From: a virus
IMG/VR virus record: IMGVR_UViG_3300031111_000008
Span: 28,112 to 92,111 of that record
Strand: one strand, 5' to 3'
Length of the DNA stretch: 64,000 bases
Program-made: the position numbers and the translations under genes
In this document: piece by piece, positions 5,467 to 61,717 of the stretch
Layout: each line of letters starts with the position of its first letter
Numbering within the stretch: position 1 is the first letter of the stretch
Notes under the pieces: model-generated
What the model saw: only the letters and a program-made list of their open reading frames with translations
Told to the model about the DNA's origin: nothing
Database searches by the model: none

Positions 5467-6474
5467 ATGAGATCGTGCATTTATTTTGAAGAGATCCCAA
5501 ATTCTGAAATTCATACCTGCTTCAAGTTCGATAGATGTAAGCTAAAGGACGGAGATGCAGATATTCCAAGCTGTAACAAATGTAAGCAAAAGCTTCTTCT
5601 GGACGATAAAGACTTTCTGAGCAAATGGGAAGATCCCGTCCGAATTCTGGATAGGAAGAAGAACCCTACGGACAGTCTCAGAAATCTACTTGCTGGAACC
5701 CCCGCATTTCTGATTGGAGGTGGTCCTTCCTCCAACGATCTTCCTCTTGAAGAACTATCCCGGCGGGGTGTCTGGTCGATGGGGATCAACAATGTGGCAG
5801 CCCATCCCAGAATCCGTCCACAGGCTTTTGTCTGCTCGGACCCGCCGATGAAGTTCTCCCATAGCATTTGGCTAGATCCCGGCATCATGAAGTTCGTTCC
5901 CATCCCTAAGCTAAGCCGGGGGTATCGAGGGAAGGTTCGCCAAAAGACAGAAGATGGCAGTTTTGTAACTCTCGACCAGAGAACCGAGGATTGTCCCAAT
6001 GTTTGGGCTTTCAAGCGGGAGAGCTGGTTTACTCCTACCAACGATTTCTTCCTCACAGACGGCGTGTGTTGGGGAAATCACAAATCTGGGGTTGCAAAAA
6101 CGGGTAGGGAGAAGGTAGTATGTACGATGTTTCTGGGGATGAGGCTGTTGCGTTATTTGGGGTGCTCAAAGCTTTTTCTGTTGGGAGTGGATTTCCTAAT
6201 GGCTGACGGCTATGGGTATTCCTTCAATCAGGCTAGGGATGCGGACGCTTGCAATTCCAACAACGAACACTATTTGGTAGTAAACAAATGGCTTTGTGAG
6301 ATGCAGGCGGCGGGAGTCTTTGAACGGTTTGGAATGCCCGTTTATAACTGCTTTGAGAGATCGGGACTGAGGGCTTTTCCGTACGTACCTTTCGATGAGG
6401 CCGTCGATGAGTGTTGCGGAATCGTGGAAAGGGAACCCAACATTTCCCGATTTTACGAGAAAGTGGACAAATGA
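5467..6474 (+). CDS. DUF115/GT42-like Rossmann protein, probable sugar transferase
   Basis: 335 residues from the ATG at 5467. A four-cysteine N-terminal section (C...C...CNKC) precedes FLIGGGPSSND, the glycine-rich loop typical of DUF115/MptE-like and GT42 sialyltransferase-like Rossmann proteins. A later LFLLGVDFLMADG motif fits the second half of such folds. First gene of an 11-kb run of sugar, methyl and sulfate transferases. The exact reaction cannot be read from sequence; it could act on a nucleotide sugar or a pterin-type substrate. Confidence 0.55.
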   Translation: MRSCIYFEEIPNSEIHTCFKFDRCKLKDGDADIPSCNKCKQKLLLDDKDFLSKWEDPVRILDRKKNPTDSLRNLLAGTPAFLIGGGPSSNDLPLEELSRRGVWSMGINNVAAHPRIRPQAFVCSDPPMKFSHSIWLDPGIMKFVPIPKLSRGYRGKVRQKTEDGSFVTLDQRTEDCPNVWAFKRESWFTPTNDFFLTDGVCWGNHKSGVAKTGREKVVCTMFLGMRLLRYLGCSKLFLLGVDFLMADGYGYSFNQARDADACNSNNEHYLVVNKWLCEMQAAGVFERFGMPVYNCFERSGLRAFPYVPFDEAVDECCGIVEREPNISRFYEKVDK

Positions 6475-29612: not shown

Positions 29613-29751
29613 GCAATCCCGTAGCAGAATTGGTAAATGCACACTAACAGGTGGAGAAGACCAGTGGCCCGACGTGGCCATCTCCAGAGCTACGCTGATT
29701 AAATATCGGGAGAAACTTCTCATTGCTGGTTCAAGTCCAGTCGGGGTTGCT
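29613..29751 (+). tRNA. Oversized Leu-like tRNA gene with structured insertion
   Basis: 5' AATCCCG pairs with 3' CGGGGTT (29742-29748), extended by GC/GC to nine pairs. The D-arm (GCAGAATTGGTAAATGC) and T-arm (GCTGG TTCAAGT CCAGT) are canonical, and a GAGA/TCTC variable arm indicates class II (Leu/Ser type). The span is about 50 bases too long: a stable hairpin (TGGAGA...TCTCCA enclosing TGGCC...GGCCA) sits between D-arm and variable arm. The anticodon cannot be assigned safely. CCA is not encoded. Confidence 0.6.
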
Positions 29752-30057: not shown

Positions 30058-30178
30058 CTTTTTGGATTTAACCGGGCAGACTTTCGGCAGACTAGTTGTA
30101 GATTACTACGGAGGGCGGGTGGAAGACAAGCCTTCGTGGATTTGTACTTGCGTGTGTGGAAATACTAATGAGGGTTGA
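29996..30178 (+). pseudogene. N-terminal stub of an HNH-type homing endonuclease family
   Basis: 60 codons, overlapping csrA. NFLDLTGQTFGRLVVDYYG and WICTCVCGN match the start of a family seen in full at 52018-52701 (NLIGETFGHLKIVAYAG, GLCDCG), but it ends before the nuclease core. Probably a decayed homing gene. Confidence 0.55.
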
Positions 30179-30196
30179 GTTTTTTCAGTTGTGGTG

Positions 30197-30300
30197 GTAG
30201 CCCCGTGGCGGAATTGGTATACGCCTGCTCGCAAAGGAAGAGGATCCAGTCAGTTAGAACGGGCCTGGACATTTGCTGGTTCGACTCCAGCCGGGGCTAC
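30197..30300 (+). tRNA. Leu-like tRNA gene, atypical anticodon region
   Basis: AGCCCCG (30199-30205) pairs perfectly with CGGGGCT (30292-30298), and GT/AC extend the stem to nine pairs. TGGCGGAATTGGTATACGC is the standard Leu D-arm, GCTGG TTCGACT CCAGC the T-arm. The middle 55 bases hold TCCAG/CTGGA as a variable-arm stem but no normal 5-bp anticodon stem with a seven-base loop. About 15 bases longer than usual. A TAG anticodon-like GTTAGAA is present inside. Confidence 0.6.
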
Positions 30301-30348
30301 TTTTATTTGGCAGTGGAAATTGGTTGACTTAGAAAAGGAGAATTCAGA

Positions 30349-31092
30349 GTGGCAAGACTCAATCAGATTATTGCGTTGGTGAAGGGCAGGAAGGCAGAGG
30401 TTCAGTCGGCTTTGACTCTGATCTACCATCAATGCCAGAAGACGGATCTCTTCGCGGGACTGGTGAAGACTTACGAACCCAGCGACGAGGAAGGGGAACG
30501 CTACCCTGGTGACGAGAAGCGGCTTCAGCTTCGCGTCGAGGAGCTTCTGCAACAGGTGGGTAAGGAGAGCAGCAAGCTGTTCGACGTGGTCGAGTTGCAG
30601 GATAGGATGAACTGCGAGACGAAAGCCAATGTGGTAGTCGACGGCGCGGTGGTTCTCAATGACGTTCCGCCTACTCATTTGCTCTTTCTGGAGCATAAGC
30701 TGGTGGATTTCATTACTCTGCTCGAAAAGATTCCCGTCCTGGATCCCGCCAAGAATTGGTCTTATTCGGACGAGGGCCGCTGTTTCCGTTCCGACCCGAT
30801 TCGGAGAACCAAAACGAAGAAGGTTCCCCGGTTCAAGTCAGTGGCGGAAGCTACCGTACAGCATCCCGAGCAGGTTGTTCAGATCACGGAGGACATTGTG
30901 GAGGGAACTTGGACGACTGTGGAGTTCTCTGGGGCGGTTAGCGAGGAAAGGAAGCATCAGCTAATCAGCCGGGCGAGGAAGCTTAAGGATGCCGTGATCG
31001 CAGCCAGGGAGGAGGCCAATTCGGCAAAGGTGGGCTTGAAGCCTTCCGTTGGAAAATCAGTGTTTGACTTCTTATTGAAGGAGGATGCTTAA
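30349..31092 (+). CDS. Conserved phage protein of unknown function
   Basis: 247 residues from GTG 30349 with AAAAGGAG upstream. Long helical N-terminal half (ALTLIYHQCQKTDLFAG, KRLQLRVEELLQQ) and a central FVITLLEKIPVLDP-like segment with KNWSYSDEGRCFRSDP. I recall similar proteins of about this length in bacteria and phages (DUF7873-like), with no known function. It lies alone between tRNA-like genes. Confidence 0.6.
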   Translation: MARLNQIIALVKGRKAEVQSALTLIYHQCQKTDLFAGLVKTYEPSDEEGERYPGDEKRLQLRVEELLQQVGKESSKLFDVVELQDRMNCETKANVVVDGAVVLNDVPPTHLLFLEHKLVDFITLLEKIPVLDPAKNWSYSDEGRCFRSDPIRRTKTKKVPRFKSVAEATVQHPEQVVQITEDIVEGTWTTVEFSGAVSEERKHQLISRARKLKDAVIAAREEANSAKVGLKPSVGKSVFDFLLKEDA

Positions 31093-31230
31093 CAAAATAG
31101 GATGAAAGTTTTAGTCTCAGATTCTTCTTGATCTAGCAGCGTGGATAAATGAAGCGCGGCGAATCAGAATTAGACTATCATCCTAGCATCAGAATTGCAC
31201 CAAAAGGTCACATCAAGTCCCGATGTCAAT

Positions 31231-31323
31231 ATTGTCATGATGACGGTTCAATCCCGTCCTTCCGCTCTTGGGCAGAAACAACTAAGCGGAAGTAGCTCAA
31301 TGGCCAGAGCAATGGCATTTAAG
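31231..31323 (+). tRNA. Circularly permuted tRNA gene candidate
   Basis: The 3' half comes first: anticodon-stem strand GTCAT (31234-31238), T-arm GACGG TTCAATC CCGTC (31242-31258), acceptor strand CTTCCGC and discriminator T31266. After a 19-base spacer comes the 5' half: GCGGAAG (31286-31292), TA, D-arm GCTC AATGGCCA GAGC, A, ATGGC (31312-31316). GCGGAAG and CTTCCGC pair 7/7, and ATGGCA/TGTCAT pair 6/6 with one G-U. No other matching half is found nearby. Bases 31093-31230 hold nothing I recognise except a weak long hairpin. Confidence 0.7.
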
Positions 31324-31396
31324 AATGAACGGAGGGTTTAGCGGAGAACGGTGGCCTGTGATTGTTGGTGAAAAATCATGTTAAAATGATGCACAA

Positions 31397-31435
31397 GCTC
31401 CTCGGGGGACGGATAATGCCTCCGGGGAGCGTTTT
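31397..31435 (+). terminator. Hairpin upstream of tRNA-Met, terminator-like
   Basis: Twelve pairs (GCTCCTCGGGGG with CCTCCGGGGAGC, two G-T), ten-base loop, then GTTTT. It separates the permuted tRNA from the tRNA-Met; it could end the first transcript or guide processing. Confidence 0.55.
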
Positions 31436-31436
31436 A

Positions 31437-31509
31437 ACCGGGGAGGTTGCTGGTTTACCCGCCCAGCCTCATAAGTTGGGTTACGACGGTTCGATTCCGT
31501 CCCCCGGAA
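31437..31509 (+). tRNA. tRNA-Met (CAT)
   Basis: 73 bases. Acceptor ACCGGGG/CCCCGGA pairs except A1-A72; anticodon arm CCAGC CTCATAA GTTGG gives CAT; variable loop GTTAC; T-arm GACGG TTCGATT CCGTC. The D-arm is weak (GGT/ACC). The unpaired 1-72 position recalls initiator tRNA, but the three G-C pairs of the initiator anticodon stem are missing. An Ile2 tRNA with modified CAT is an alternative. CCA is not encoded. Confidence 0.82.
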
Positions 31510-31715
31510 CTTTGGTAGTAAAGCAAACCCCAGAAGGAGGAACCCCAGGGCACATTTGCGAGATTTTTCACTATCAATTTCCTGGTCCTGATTTGGACGT
31601 GGGTTTCCCAAGGTTAGCCAAGGGAAGGTAGTCGGAATCGCACGTCTCGTAGTGTCATTTCCAGTTTGATGACGGCTGGATGGGGTTCCTCCTCTTCTTG
31701 CAGGAAGGATGGCAA

Positions 31716-32735
31716 ATGGTAAAGATCGTGAGGGAGGATCTGATCAAAGTTCTCGATTTCCTCCAACCAGGACTTTTGGAAGCGACCAAGGATCGGCCTG
31801 GTTTCTATTGCTTTTCTATAGGCAAAGTATTTTCTTGGAACGATAACGTTGCATGCGAAGTGGCGTTCAGAAATGGAGGCGCAAACTTCAAAGTACCAGC
31901 CGATCCTCTAAGGACTCTTCTTGGCAAACTCTCAGATCAGGAGATTAGTTTTTGCGTCGAGGAGAATCAGCTACGGATACGAGGAATCAACAAGCGGGCC
32001 AAGATCAACCTGCTGGAGTTGGAGAATGAAGTTATTCCCAGAAAATCTGTAAAAACCAAGTGGGAGGAGCTGCCGGAAGGATTTGAGGAGGCTTTGAAAG
32101 TAGTGATGCCCAGCGCTGCCAGGAAGCAGGAAGGTATAGAGAGATACATTCATTTTCATCCTGGATGGGTAGAGGCTTGCGATAATTTTCAAGCGGTTCG
32201 TTGTGATCTGGTTGGTTGGGACGATTCGATTCTGATACACGCGGCATGGGCAAAGCACCTGGTTGGTGCAGGATTGACTCGTTTTGTAATTGAACAAGGT
32301 TGGATCCATTTCAAAAGTTCTGTGGGACGAATCAGTCTGCGGAGGTACGATGACGATTATCCAGACTACTACTCGGCAGCGTTTGCAGGGGATGGCAGGG
32401 TAATGAAAATGCCGAAGGGGCTTGAGGGCATTATCAATCGGGCCGTCGTGATGAGTAAGGACGAGAAAGTTGGTGAAGAGCTTGGGGACGATGTCGAGAT
32501 TAGTTTCAGAGACGGGCGGGTAACTGTACGGTCCAAAGGCAAGTACGGATCTTATCAGGAGTTTGTGAATGAGGATTACAACAGCTACGTGGAGGACGAG
32601 AACGTTTCGTTCATTGTTTCTGCTAGCATGTTCAAACGAATGTTGGATATGCCAGGAAAGTGCGAAGTGACGGACAGGACGTTGAGGAAGATTACGGGTT
32701 CCTGTTCGTTTGCTGTTCGGTTGAATTCTAATTGA
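31716..32735 (+). CDS. DNA polymerase sliding clamp (beta-like)
   Basis: 339 residues from ATG 31716 (AGGAAGG upstream). Three-part layout of similar strand-helix units, with FKVPADPLRTLLGKL, ISLRRYDDDYPDY and FIVSASMFKRMLDM typical of DnaN-type domains. Divergent from cellular DnaN. The clamp loader at 36161 would place it on DNA for the polymerase domain at 34564. Confidence 0.75.
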   Translation: MVKIVREDLIKVLDFLQPGLLEATKDRPGFYCFSIGKVFSWNDNVACEVAFRNGGANFKVPADPLRTLLGKLSDQEISFCVEENQLRIRGINKRAKINLLELENEVIPRKSVKTKWEELPEGFEEALKVVMPSAARKQEGIERYIHFHPGWVEACDNFQAVRCDLVGWDDSILIHAAWAKHLVGAGLTRFVIEQGWIHFKSSVGRISLRRYDDDYPDYYSAAFAGDGRVMKMPKGLEGIINRAVVMSKDEKVGEELGDDVEISFRDGRVTVRSKGKYGSYQEFVNEDYNSYVEDENVSFIVSASMFKRMLDMPGKCEVTDRTLRKITGSCSFAVRLNSN

Positions 32736-52701: not shown

Positions 52702-53362
52702 TTTTCTCTCTTTCACTATTGTTGATCACTTCTCCAAGATGGATTCGATTTGCTGGGACGGAAGGATTCTCGGGCTGACATTTTTCAACATATCTTGCAG
52801 CCGTACGGCGAGATAAGCCGGTTTTTTCCATGATTCTCTTGTAGGTCAGTCCCGATTTTCTCATGCGATAGACTACACGAGGATCCATTTTGGTTGTCCC
52901 AGGCTTTCTTCCTTTGTACTTTCCCTTCTTTTTGGCGATGGCGATTCCGGCAGCTTGTCGTTCTCTTCTGGTTTCCTGCTCCATTTCGGCGACGGCGAAT
53001 AGCACGGAGGCGATGAGTTTCCCGCCCGCTCCTGAAAAATCCAGCTGTTGGGTGACGGAGACTACACGGATATTTTTTTCACACCAGTCACATAGGGTAT
53101 TGATGCCGTCTTTCAGCGAACGTGAAAGACGATCCAACTTCCAGACGACGACTGTTTTGATCTGCCCGTTGAAGATCATTTGTTGCAATTTTTTCAGTTC
53201 AGGACGGTCGAGGTTGTCGCCCGTCTGCTTGTCGACGAAGAAGATCACATCCTTCCTCTTGTAGCAATTGCCTTTCAGCCACTTGACGATCTCGGAACGC
53301 TGCCCAGCAGCATTTTGAGAGCAAGTGCTGACGCGAATGTACACTGCTGTTGATGGGTTCAT
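52691..53362 (-). CDS. Serine recombinase (resolvase/invertase type)
   Basis: 223 residues. AVYIRVSTCSQN holds the catalytic Ser, VVWKLDRLSRSLKDG and AEMEQETRRERQAAG the other catalytic and dimer-interface residues. The C-terminal GLTYKRIMEKTGLSRRTAARYV is a Hin-type HTH. Full small-resolvase length. It could resolve multimers or invert a segment; no clear inverted sites were seen in the window. Confidence 0.92.
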   Translation of the reverse strand: MNPSTAVYIRVSTCSQNAAGQRSEIVKWLKGNCYKRKDVIFFVDKQTGDNLDRPELKKLQQMIFNGQIKTVVVWKLDRLSRSLKDGINTLCDWCEKNIRVVSVTQQLDFSGAGGKLIASVLFAVAEMEQETRRERQAAGIAIAKKKGKYKGRKPGTTKMDPRVVYRMRKSGLTYKRIMEKTGLSRRTAARYVEKCQPENPSVPANRIHLGEVINNSEREKNAS

Positions 53363-54432
53363 TTTAACTCCAGAGTCGTTTTTCTTTCTGCGCTGGTTAG
53401 TATGGTGGAAGATTTTTCAATACGCACTATGACAATAGAATCATCTTGTGGCATTGGTGGTTCTGCGAAACTCTTGAAGATGATTACAGATTGATCTTTG
53501 CATTCTTTCACGGTGGCCGAATCGAAAGCCCACACGGTAGCCGAGTTGTAAGCCTCTACGGTAGCCGAGTTGTAAGCCGTCACGGTAGCCGAGTTGTAAG
53601 CCCTTACGGTAGCCGAGTTGTAAGCCTCTACGGTAGCCGAGTTGTAAGCCTCTACGGTAGCCGAGTTGTAAGCCTCTACGGTAGCCGAGTTGTAAGCCTC
53701 TACGGTAGCCGAGCCGGAAGCCGTCACGGTAGCCGAATCAAAAGCCCACACGGTAGCCGAGCCGTAAGCCTCTACGGTAGCCGAGCCGCAAGCCGTCACG
53801 GTGGCCGAATCGCGAGCCCTCACGGTAGCCGAGCCGTAAGCCTTTACGGTAGCCGAGTTGCAAGCCGTCACGGTGGCCGAATCGCGAGCCCTCACGGTAG
53901 CCGAGCCGCAAGCCTCTACGGTAGCCGAGCCGCAAGCCCTCACGGTAGCCGAATCGTAAGCCGTCACGATGGTCGAGCCGGAAGCGTGTACGGTAGCCGA
54001 GTCGGAAGCCCATACGGTAGCCGAATCGTAAGCCGTCACGGTAGCCGAGCCGGAAGCGTGTACGGTAGCCGAGTCGGAAGCCGTCACGGTGACCGAGCCT
54101 ACAGCGTATACCTCTCCTTCCTTAACCTCTCTTTTTCCTTCTCTGATGATTTTCTTCTCGGCCCAATCGACCAGCCCCAACCTGGTGCGGCGTTCGATGT
54201 CTCGTACGCCCGCCCAGTCTGGGAGGATGTCTTGATCGAGTTGAAAGTTCCACTCGTCAAGAGGTTTTGAGAAGTCTTTTTCGGGCGGCGTAATCTCCAC
54301 GCGGACGATATTCGGACCCCGAACTCCGTCTGCGTTTAGAGAATGCTCGTCGATGATGTCTTCGTGAGAATCTGTTTTGACCGACCAAAAGATCTTATCT
54401 TTTGTCAGAACGAAAGAGGCTGGTTGACACAT
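53359..54432 (-). CDS. Octapeptide-repeat protein, copy 1
   Basis: 357 residues. Residues 1-110 are a unique domain (DKIFWSVKTDSHEDIIDEHS, DWAGVRDIERRTRLGLVDWA); 110-315 are about 26 copies of an eight-residue unit N/D/G-S-A-T-V-x-A-x. Such regular units should stack as a beta-solenoid. A short tail follows. Copy 2 at 60367 has the same N-terminus almost base for base. Role unknown; an adhesive or ice-binding-like surface, or a ruler, are guesses. Confidence 0.75.
   Translation of the reverse strand: MCQPASFVLTKDKIFWSVKTDSHEDIIDEHSLNADGVRGPNIVRVEITPPEKDFSKPLDEWNFQLDQDILPDWAGVRDIERRTRLGLVDWAEKKIIREGKREVKEGEVYAVGSVTVTASDSATVHASGSATVTAYDSATVWASDSATVHASGSTIVTAYDSATVRACGSATVEACGSATVRARDSATVTACNSATVKAYGSATVRARDSATVTACGSATVEAYGSATVWAFDSATVTASGSATVEAYNSATVEAYNSATVEAYNSATVEAYNSATVRAYNSATVTAYNSATVEAYNSATVWAFDSATVKECKDQSVIIFKSFAEPPMPQDDSIVIVRIEKSSTILTSAERKTTLELK
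53512..54100 (-). repeat. 24-bp tandem repeats coding octapeptides (copy 1)
   Basis: Period exactly 24 bases, on the plus strand of the form ACGGTAGCCGAGTYGTAAGCC plus three. Units differ mainly at the two variable residues. A run of identical units (GAG TTG TAA GCC pattern) near 53540-53700 indicates recent duplication. Confidence 0.9.
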
Positions 54433-60366: not shown

Positions 60367-61422
60367 TCAATCAACCATTGTCAATTTTGCCGATAGCCCC
60401 TGTGTGCTACGGAAAATTTCAACTTCGTTTGTTCGATAGACAAGAACGTTTGAATCATCTTGTGGCTTTGGTGGTTTTGTTGAACTCTTGAAGACAATTA
60501 CAGATTGATCTTTGCACTCTTTTACGGTAGCCGAGCCGCAAGCCGTCACGGTGGCCGAATCGCGAGCCCTCACGGTAGCCGAGCCGTAAGCCTGCACGGT
60601 AGCCGAATCGCGAGCCCTTACGGTAGCCGAGTCGAAAGCCCGCACGGTAGCCGAGTCGAAAGCCTTTACGGTAGCCGAGTCGAAAGCCCGCACGGTAGCC
60701 GAATCAAAAGCCCACACGGTAGCCGAGCCGTAAGCCCTCACGGTAGCCGAGCCGTAAGCCCGCACGGTAGCCGAGTCGAAAGCCCGCACGGTAGCCGAAT
60801 CGCGAGCCCTCACGGTAGCCGAGCCGGAAGCCGTCACGGTAGCCGAGTTGCAAGCCCGCACGGTAGCCGAATCGCGAGCCGTCACGGTGGCCGAGCCGGA
60901 AGCCCTCACGGTAGCCGAGTTGCAAGCCGTCACGGTGGCCGAATCGCAAGCCGTCACGGTGGCCGAGTTGTGAGCCCGCACGATGGCCAAATCGCGAGCC
61001 CATACGGTAGCCGAATCGTAAGCCGTCACGGTAGCCGAGCCGGAAGCGTGTACGGTAGCCGAGTCGGAAGCCGTCACGGTGACCGAGCCTACAGCGTATA
61101 CCTCTCCTTCCTTAACCTCTCTTTTTCCTTCTCTGATGATTTTCTTCTCGGCCCAATCGACCAGCCCCAACCTGGTGCGGCGTTCGATGTCTCGTACGCC
61201 CGCCCAGTCTGGGAGGATGTCTTGATCGAGTTGAAAGTTCCACTCGTCAAGAGGTTTTGAGAAGTCTTTTTCGGGCGGCGTAATCTCCACGCGGACGATA
61301 TTCGGACCCCGAACTCCGTCTGCGTTCAGAGAATGCTCGTCGATGATGTCTTCGTGAGAATCTGTTTTGACCGACCAAAAGATCTTATCTTTTGTCAGAA
61401 CGAAAGAGGCTGGTTGACACAT
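60367..61422 (-). CDS. Octapeptide-repeat protein, copy 2
   Basis: 351 residues from the ATG giving MCQPASF. The N-terminal 105 residues equal copy 1 (53359). About 24 octapeptide units follow, rich in RA and FD forms, whereas copy 1 has long EAY runs. The tail differs (VLVYRTNEVEIFRS). The DNA flanks nearly match those of copy 1, so gene conversion or segmental duplication is likely. Confidence 0.75.
   Translation of the reverse strand: MCQPASFVLTKDKIFWSVKTDSHEDIIDEHSLNADGVRGPNIVRVEITPPEKDFSKPLDEWNFQLDQDILPDWAGVRDIERRTRLGLVDWAEKKIIREGKREVKEGEVYAVGSVTVTASDSATVHASGSATVTAYDSATVWARDLAIVRAHNSATVTACDSATVTACNSATVRASGSATVTARDSATVRACNSATVTASGSATVRARDSATVRAFDSATVRAYGSATVRAYGSATVWAFDSATVRAFDSATVKAFDSATVRAFDSATVRARDSATVQAYGSATVRARDSATVTACGSATVKECKDQSVIVFKSSTKPPKPQDDSNVLVYRTNEVEIFRSTQGLSAKLTMVD
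60523..61085 (-). repeat. 24-bp tandem repeats coding octapeptides (copy 2)
   Basis: Same 24-base period as 53512-54100 with a different order of variants. The first four units (in gene direction) match copy 1; the rest have diverged. Confidence 0.9.
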
Positions 61423-61465
61423 TTTTTGGGTTCTCTCTTTTTTGGAGAAATGATAAGCGATTGAC

Positions 61466-61717
61466 TCACCGGCGGCGGATGAAGCCGTCACGGCAGATCA
61501 CCAGCATATCGACCAGCTTATCACCTTCTGCTCTGGGGAAGTTGGTAACCAGTTCACCAGAAGCCAAAGGGGGTCGGGATAGGTCTAGGTAGTGCTCCCA
61601 AACTCTGGCGGTGTCCCGTTCGCGCGTTGATGCTATCGGGCCGTCGTTGTCGGCCAGGGTCCAGATAGAGCCGTATTCGCCATCGATACGGGAAACGGCT
61701 AGGGTTGCGTATTGCAT
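61466..61717 (-). CDS. Small protein of unknown function
   Basis: 83 residues from the ATG at 61715-61717 (AAGAGG upstream). Beta strands (ATLAVSRIDGEYGSIWTLAD), helix, basic end. An AATGATAA element follows its stop. Confidence 0.5.
   Translation of the reverse strand: MQYATLAVSRIDGEYGSIWTLADNDGPIASTRERDTARVWEHYLDLSRPPLASGELVTNFPRAEGDKLVDMLVICRDGFIRRR

Follow-up and report, generated by a model that had tools for sequence, protein, structure and literature searches.

A conserved, circularly permuted tRNA-like RNA behind the DUF7873 gene of a tailed phage, probably a tRNA mimic of the YrlA type

Y RNAs near Ro genes in phages have reportedly been recorded already in the Y RNA survey of Chen et al., 2014. 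In the bacterial Y RNA YrlA, D-, T- and acceptor arms make up a tRNA-like domain, which sits on a stem formed by the ends of the RNA; the stem binds Ro/Rsr, and the tRNA-like head binds PNPase (PMC8394870). In Salmonella, rsr, the Y RNA and rtcBA are organized in one operon, and the YrlA head has been proposed to compete for an anticodon nuclease (PMC7790460), a function that would fit a phage. TROVE proteins have been noted in some jumbo phages (PMC7824862). Reports of permuted tRNA genes in phages were not found in the open-access literature searched, coverage of which was partial, with the main Y RNA papers lying outside it.

The window analyzed here, a stretch of 64,000 nucleotides, is part of a 92,111-base viral record (IMGVR_UViG_3300031111_000008) of a tailed phage, as indicated by portal, terminase-like and capsid matches. 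Near relatives at the DNA level were not found, and a search for the host via related prophages gave nothing. The 587-nt non-coding stretch between a DUF7873 gene and a DNA polymerase processivity factor gene contains a permuted unit at 31233-31317 on the plus strand, as read from the sequence and its fold. The features of the locus are:

30349-31092, plus strand: DUF7873 gene, 247 aa, GTG start (Pfam PF25283, E 5e-85), directly upstream of the RNA
31099-31184, plus strand: hairpin AGGATGA...TCATCCT upstream of the unit (MFE fold)
31198-31212, plus strand: predicted basal stem, 5' strand, CACCAA-AA-GGTCACA (MFE and centroid)
31233-31238, plus strand: closing ("anticodon") stem, 3'-side strand in tRNA order, TGTCAT, pairing 6/6 with 31312-31317
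31242-31258, plus strand: T-arm, GACGG-TTCAATC-CCGTC, 5-bp stem and loop TTCAATC (covariance model)
31259-31265, plus strand: 3' acceptor strand, CTTCCGC, pairing 7/7 with 31286-31292; the helix covaries in relatives
31266-31285, plus strand: spacer closing the acceptor stem, TCTTGGGCAGAAACAACTAA, 20 nt, beginning with U73-CTT
31286-31292, plus strand: 5' acceptor strand, GCGGAAG (covariance model)
31293-31310, plus strand: TA linker and D-arm (D-arm 31295-31310), GCTC-AATGGCCA-GAGC (covariance model)
31312-31317, plus strand: closing ("anticodon") stem, 5'-side strand in tRNA order, ATGGCA, pairing with 31233-31238
31357-31370, plus strand: predicted basal stem, 3' strand, TGTGATT-G-TTGGTG (MFE and centroid)
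31680-32735: gene matching DNA polymerase processivity factor (clamp), PHROG 947

The strands of the unit thus follow the order anticodon-3', T-arm, 3' acceptor, spacer, 5' acceptor, D-arm, anticodon-5'. Pairing is complete in the acceptor stem (7/7, all Watson-Crick), the T-stem (5/5), the D-stem (4/4) and the closing stem (6/6, including one G-U). Strand reading therefore bears out the earlier note, which had placed T-arm and 3' acceptor before 5' acceptor and D-arm, with the same acceptor and anticodon-stem pairing across the junction; its gap of 19 bases between the halves is the 20-nt spacer with U73 counted to the tRNA. Folding of 31220-31330 gave z = -2.3, equally stable shuffles occurring in 3 of 200 cases. 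The 6-bp closing stem alone is weaker evidence: by our estimate, once the allowed offsets are taken into account, chance would produce such pairing in about a few per cent of cases. A 13-bp outer (basal) stem is predicted in both the MFE and the centroid structure, but it does not stand out from shuffled flanks (p 0.18-0.25, in a test that is weak for other units too). The hairpin at 31099-31184, which takes the place of the first unit in related loci with two units, is a possible, albeit unproven, second RNA of an array.

Other tRNA-like genes occur nearby. Those at 29615-29750 and 30199-30300 have Leu-type D-arms and inserts between D-arm and T-arm, and ARAGORN detects them only when introns are allowed; the latter is readable as Leu(UAG) with a 21-nt insert. 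All four tRNA-like elements carry a discriminator followed by CTT and no encoded CCA (29615-29750, G-CTT; 30199-30300, A-CTT; 31242-31292, T-CTT; 31437-31509, A-CTT). The motif GATAATNCYNCGGGGAGCGTTT is located upstream of the clamp gene both in the window (31399-31440) and in a syntenic phage, L004 (5600-5630), the sole match in a scan of viral contigs; in the syntenic place before its clamp gene, L004 has a tRNA-like RNA (5713-5816) with a long hairpin in the anticodon/variable region. Elsewhere, the minus strand of the window carries a pair of long genes (53359-54432 and 60367-61491) that closely resemble each other and contain SATV repeat tracts; some 7 kb separates them.

When 10.7 Mb of control sequence, either reversed or shuffled, was scanned strictly for the permuted succession T-arm, acceptor, spacer, acceptor, D-arm, nothing reached the score of the window unit (20). 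The covariance-model search proposed in the earlier note was carried out with a model, R1, trained on 18 permuted units from other phages with the window unit left out; it found the unit with 50.6 bits (E 9.7e-14). On 605 kb of loci picked solely by a related clamp gene, the best full-length R1 match reached 11.9 bits. R1 also hits the places where ordinary tRNAs adjoin in tandem, which makes the lack of intact tRNAs a necessary filter. No intact tRNA is present in the non-coding stretch holding the unit, and ARAGORN finds none in the whole window unless introns are allowed, from which it follows that the halves do not belong to two ordinary tRNAs.

Comparison with related phages, as suggested in the earlier note, was possible at long distance: DUF7873 homologues with 32-39% identity are present in 43 phage records. 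We read the loci behind DUF7873 in nine of these records and in the contig L121, whose unit had been found independently by DNA pattern; the loci were chosen by protein homology, and units inside them were found with R1 and a scan asking for at least 6 acceptor pairs. In 9 of the 10 loci (L121, Racecar, Phendrix, NiceHouse, PA-SR01, Keelan, Rhizobium phages TM61 and TM16, and Klebsiella phage KpLz-2_45), where the DUF7873 homologues show 33-43% identity, the gene is followed about 60 to 680 nt downstream by either one or two permuted units whose acceptor strands pair 7/7. The hosts belong to Arthrobacter, Gordonia, Rhodococcus, Pseudanabaena, Rhizobium and Klebsiella, and one locus is from an uncultured virus. 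The Microcoleus locus contains no permuted unit but merely a T-arm-like match. Intact tRNAs are absent from the nine unit-bearing loci, save one beside the unit of Keelan. In the T and acceptor helices of 15 units, including that of the window, 180/180 cells are paired, and double-sided changes occur at 12/12 pairs; all 15 pair 7/7 across the junction, with compensatory changes at every acceptor pair. The covariation score of 1.07 compares with 0.27 for shuffles, and sliding gave no more than 0.26. In five of the loci with a clear unit, the spacer of the last unit is long (24-36 nt), and those of first units are short (6-10 nt); the 20-nt spacer of the window resembles the long, last-unit kind. 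We define the set by a permuted unit that follows a DUF7873 gene on the same strand, in non-coding sequence and at a distance of up to about 0.7 kb; the window has all of these, and its unit is a member of this set. These data show the permuted fold, its covariation and its conserved place behind DUF7873. As judged from sequence comparison, the RNA and DUF7873 form a conserved phage module of one protein gene followed by one or two RNAs, and DUF7873, by its position, is a candidate protein partner of the RNA. The AlphaFold model of DUF7873 is poor (pLDDT 54).

Permuted units are not confined to DUF7873 loci. DNA pattern scanning with ARAGORN filtering yielded about 25 of them from large phages. 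The acceptors measure 7 bp, and the spacers, which are 4 to 28 nt long, often consist of N-CCA and a few bases; the acceptor helices of these units covary strongly, pairing having itself been a search requirement. A scan for a Gly-specific permuted pattern gave 0 hits. In Streptomyces phage Satis, a unit is located directly upstream of the gene of an annotated Ro-like RNA-binding protein, and in Klebsiella phage KP2025 one adjoins a gene of DUF2828, which we take to be a Ro-like family. TROVE or DUF2828 was detected in 12 of 18 IMG/VR records with permuted units (TROVE (Ro60) in 6, DUF2828 in 5 above and 1 below the cut-off) versus 0 of 22 other phage records, in a comparison made after the fact that includes two near-duplicate record pairs and controls which are mostly tRNA-bearing and on average shorter. 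Among the nine named DUF7873 records, that of Rhizobium phage TM61 alone contains TROVE. The phage represented by L128 (5300-6250, minus strand) and L136, with an array of four permuted units and two same-flank units lacking a tRNA domain, carries TROVE and RtcB. KVP40, which has a DUF2828 gene, harbors such tRNA-like RNAs in unpermuted form, an additional hairpin lying after position 28. Its long tRNA-like RNAs (L087, c9302-9417, c10968-11091, c11101-11214, c11332-11455 and c11720-11842), three of which are annotated as pseudo-tRNAs, contain 41-50 nt hairpin inserts, in two cases between positions 28 and 29; relatives of a stretch that includes two of these RNAs occur in 51 Vibrio phage records.

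The tRNA-like domain of the window unit, in which T-arm, closed acceptor arm and D-arm follow one another in the permuted succession, is that of YrlA. YrlA is the sole sense-strand Rfam family that aligns in register with the unit, albeit weakly, with 15.5 bits versus a gathering threshold of 69 bits for RF02553 (E 1.1 for 231 bases); a separate search with Rfam YrlA left the window without a match at E <= 1. The model gave 29-38 bits (E 5e-5 to 0.012) on DUF7873-linked units from Klebsiella, Rhizobium and Arthrobacter phages, and 30-45 bits, below the gathering score, on other phage units. Weak matches at E <= 1, none over the cut-off, also appeared in 13 of 14 control genomes, so these E-values, too, have to be combined with the filter for intact tRNAs. 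Neither TROVE (Ro60) nor DUF2828 was detected in the 92-kb record; a Ro protein might be supplied by the host. Since the Rfam threshold is not reached and a Ro gene was not found, we do not file the window RNA as a Ro/Y RNA; it resembles Y RNAs by architecture, and membership in the Ro/Y system is not claimed.

The earlier note had spoken of a permuted tRNA gene. The permuted tRNA topology is real and conserved, but splicing into a tRNA, in which RNase P and 3' processing would open the spacer, an endonuclease trim the ends and a ligase join the loop to give a working tRNA, perhaps Gly-bodied, is not supported and appears unlikely. The topology does match that of permuted genes in algae and archaea, the acceptor and U73 of the unit are Gly-like, and U73-CTT agrees with the discriminator-CTT of the three other nearby tRNA-like genes; moreover, some other phages with permuted units encode RtcB or Rnl1, and a canonical anticodon arm results from joining in some of these units. 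However, neither RtcB nor a T4-type Rnl1 ligase is encoded in the 92-kb record, and the DUF7873-linked relatives behave like YrlA-like RNAs. Joining of the loop ends in the window produces UUA in most cases, as the earlier note had observed with a well-placed warning against trusting it; only UUA or AUA arise, with a 3-nt variable loop, joins with a 4-5 nt variable loop yield nothing usable, and a cloverleaf with a sensible anticodon was not obtained. A stop-codon suppressor reading UAA is unlikely because TAA terminates 9 of 37 genes. The permuted self-splicing intron envisaged earlier as the route to a tRNA finds no support, either, as Rfam gave no intron match at 30150-31700; for a permuted group I or II intron, the flanks are also too short. 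A new small intron spliced at 28/29 and marked by the recurring flanks "ACAGCAA" and "GCAGCGTAG...TACTTCG" ceased to be the main reading once YrlA matches and genes of Ro-like proteins had come to light. A join after position 28 creates a canonical anticodon arm in several other phages (12 of 26 units with matched halves versus 18% for mismatched halves); these units may be tRNA mimics with a retained anticodon hairpin, and some of them may undergo true splicing.

Lying between two same-strand genes, the unit might also act in cis, as a tRNA-like part of the clamp gene's 5' leader at which RNase P cleavage separates the DUF7873 and clamp mRNAs; according to a title cited in PMC9433436, permuted tRNAs have served in vitro as probes for RNase P. 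In related loci, however, the unit stays with DUF7873 and not with the clamp gene, and two units are often present, which makes a cis role rather improbable. A tandem tRNA duplication that lost its outer halves would yield the permuted order as well, and the neighboring tRNA-like genes are also odd, but a functionless, degenerate remnant is very doubtful given that all stems are intact and that nine further phage loci, rich in compensatory changes, keep this order behind DUF7873. Least credible is a two-piece tmRNA-like RNA: the strand order is identical, and related units match beta_tmRNA weakly (24-25 bits, E 3e-4 to 6e-4), but the window has no tmRNA match, and the unit possesses a complete 4-bp D-stem and a G-C pair 3-70.

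We consider the window RNA to be a circularly permuted tRNA mimic of the type of YrlA, with a probability of roughly 0.7. The RNA would be co-transcribed with the DUF7873 gene; T-arm, D-arm and the loop-closed acceptor stem would form a tRNA-shaped head, and the RNA ends would exit at the site of the anticodon arm and pair as a basal stem (31198-31212 with 31357-31370). This stem would be bound by a protein, which is Ro60 in known Y RNAs and, judged by position, might be DUF7873 here. The anticodon-less head may then be offered to tRNA-binding enzymes, either tethering PNPase as in YrlA or serving as a decoy, conceivably for anticodon nucleases or tRNA enzymes. A Y-like RNA would not need splicing, and its acceptor loop may either stay closed or be opened by RNase P and 3' processing. 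To the further idea that DUF7873 is the dedicated partner in a Ro-independent RNP of one or two permuted tRNA mimics, constituting a new phage RNA-protein system in phages of Actinobacteria, Cyanobacteria, Rhizobium and Klebsiella, we assign even odds. The locus points to an unannotated class of phage RNA tied to a protein family of unknown function and missed by tRNA finders, and the module is testable in the cultured phages Gordonia Phendrix, Arthrobacter Racecar and Rhodococcus NiceHouse, for which laboratory hosts exist. Between phages and bacteria, tRNA-based defence and repair are fields of active contest, in which an anticodon-less tRNA mimic could serve as decoy, nuclease tether or repair platform.

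Among known systems, YrlA (RF02553) shares with the window RNA the permuted succession of T-arm, loop-closed acceptor stem and D-arm, with RNA ends that exit where the anticodon would be and that, in the window RNA, are predicted to form the basal stem; the window RNA differs in its 20-nt acceptor loop, in the absence of a Ro60 gene from the record and in having DUF7873 at the position of Ro. The BHB-spliced permuted tRNA genes of algae and Thermoproteales have the same order of halves and a junction in the anticodon region, but they possess a usable anticodon and splicing enzymes, whereas the window unit has neither. Permuted two-piece tmRNA agrees in the order 3' acceptor, spacer, 5' acceptor, but lacks a D-stem and has G3-U70 in place of G3-C70. 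The "pseudo-tRNAs" of KVP40 and the "tRNA-like stable RNA" of T5 are likewise tRNA-like RNAs of phages, in which the anticodon region has been replaced or extended; unlike the window RNA, they are unpermuted and carry the extra hairpin within the ordinary tRNA order.
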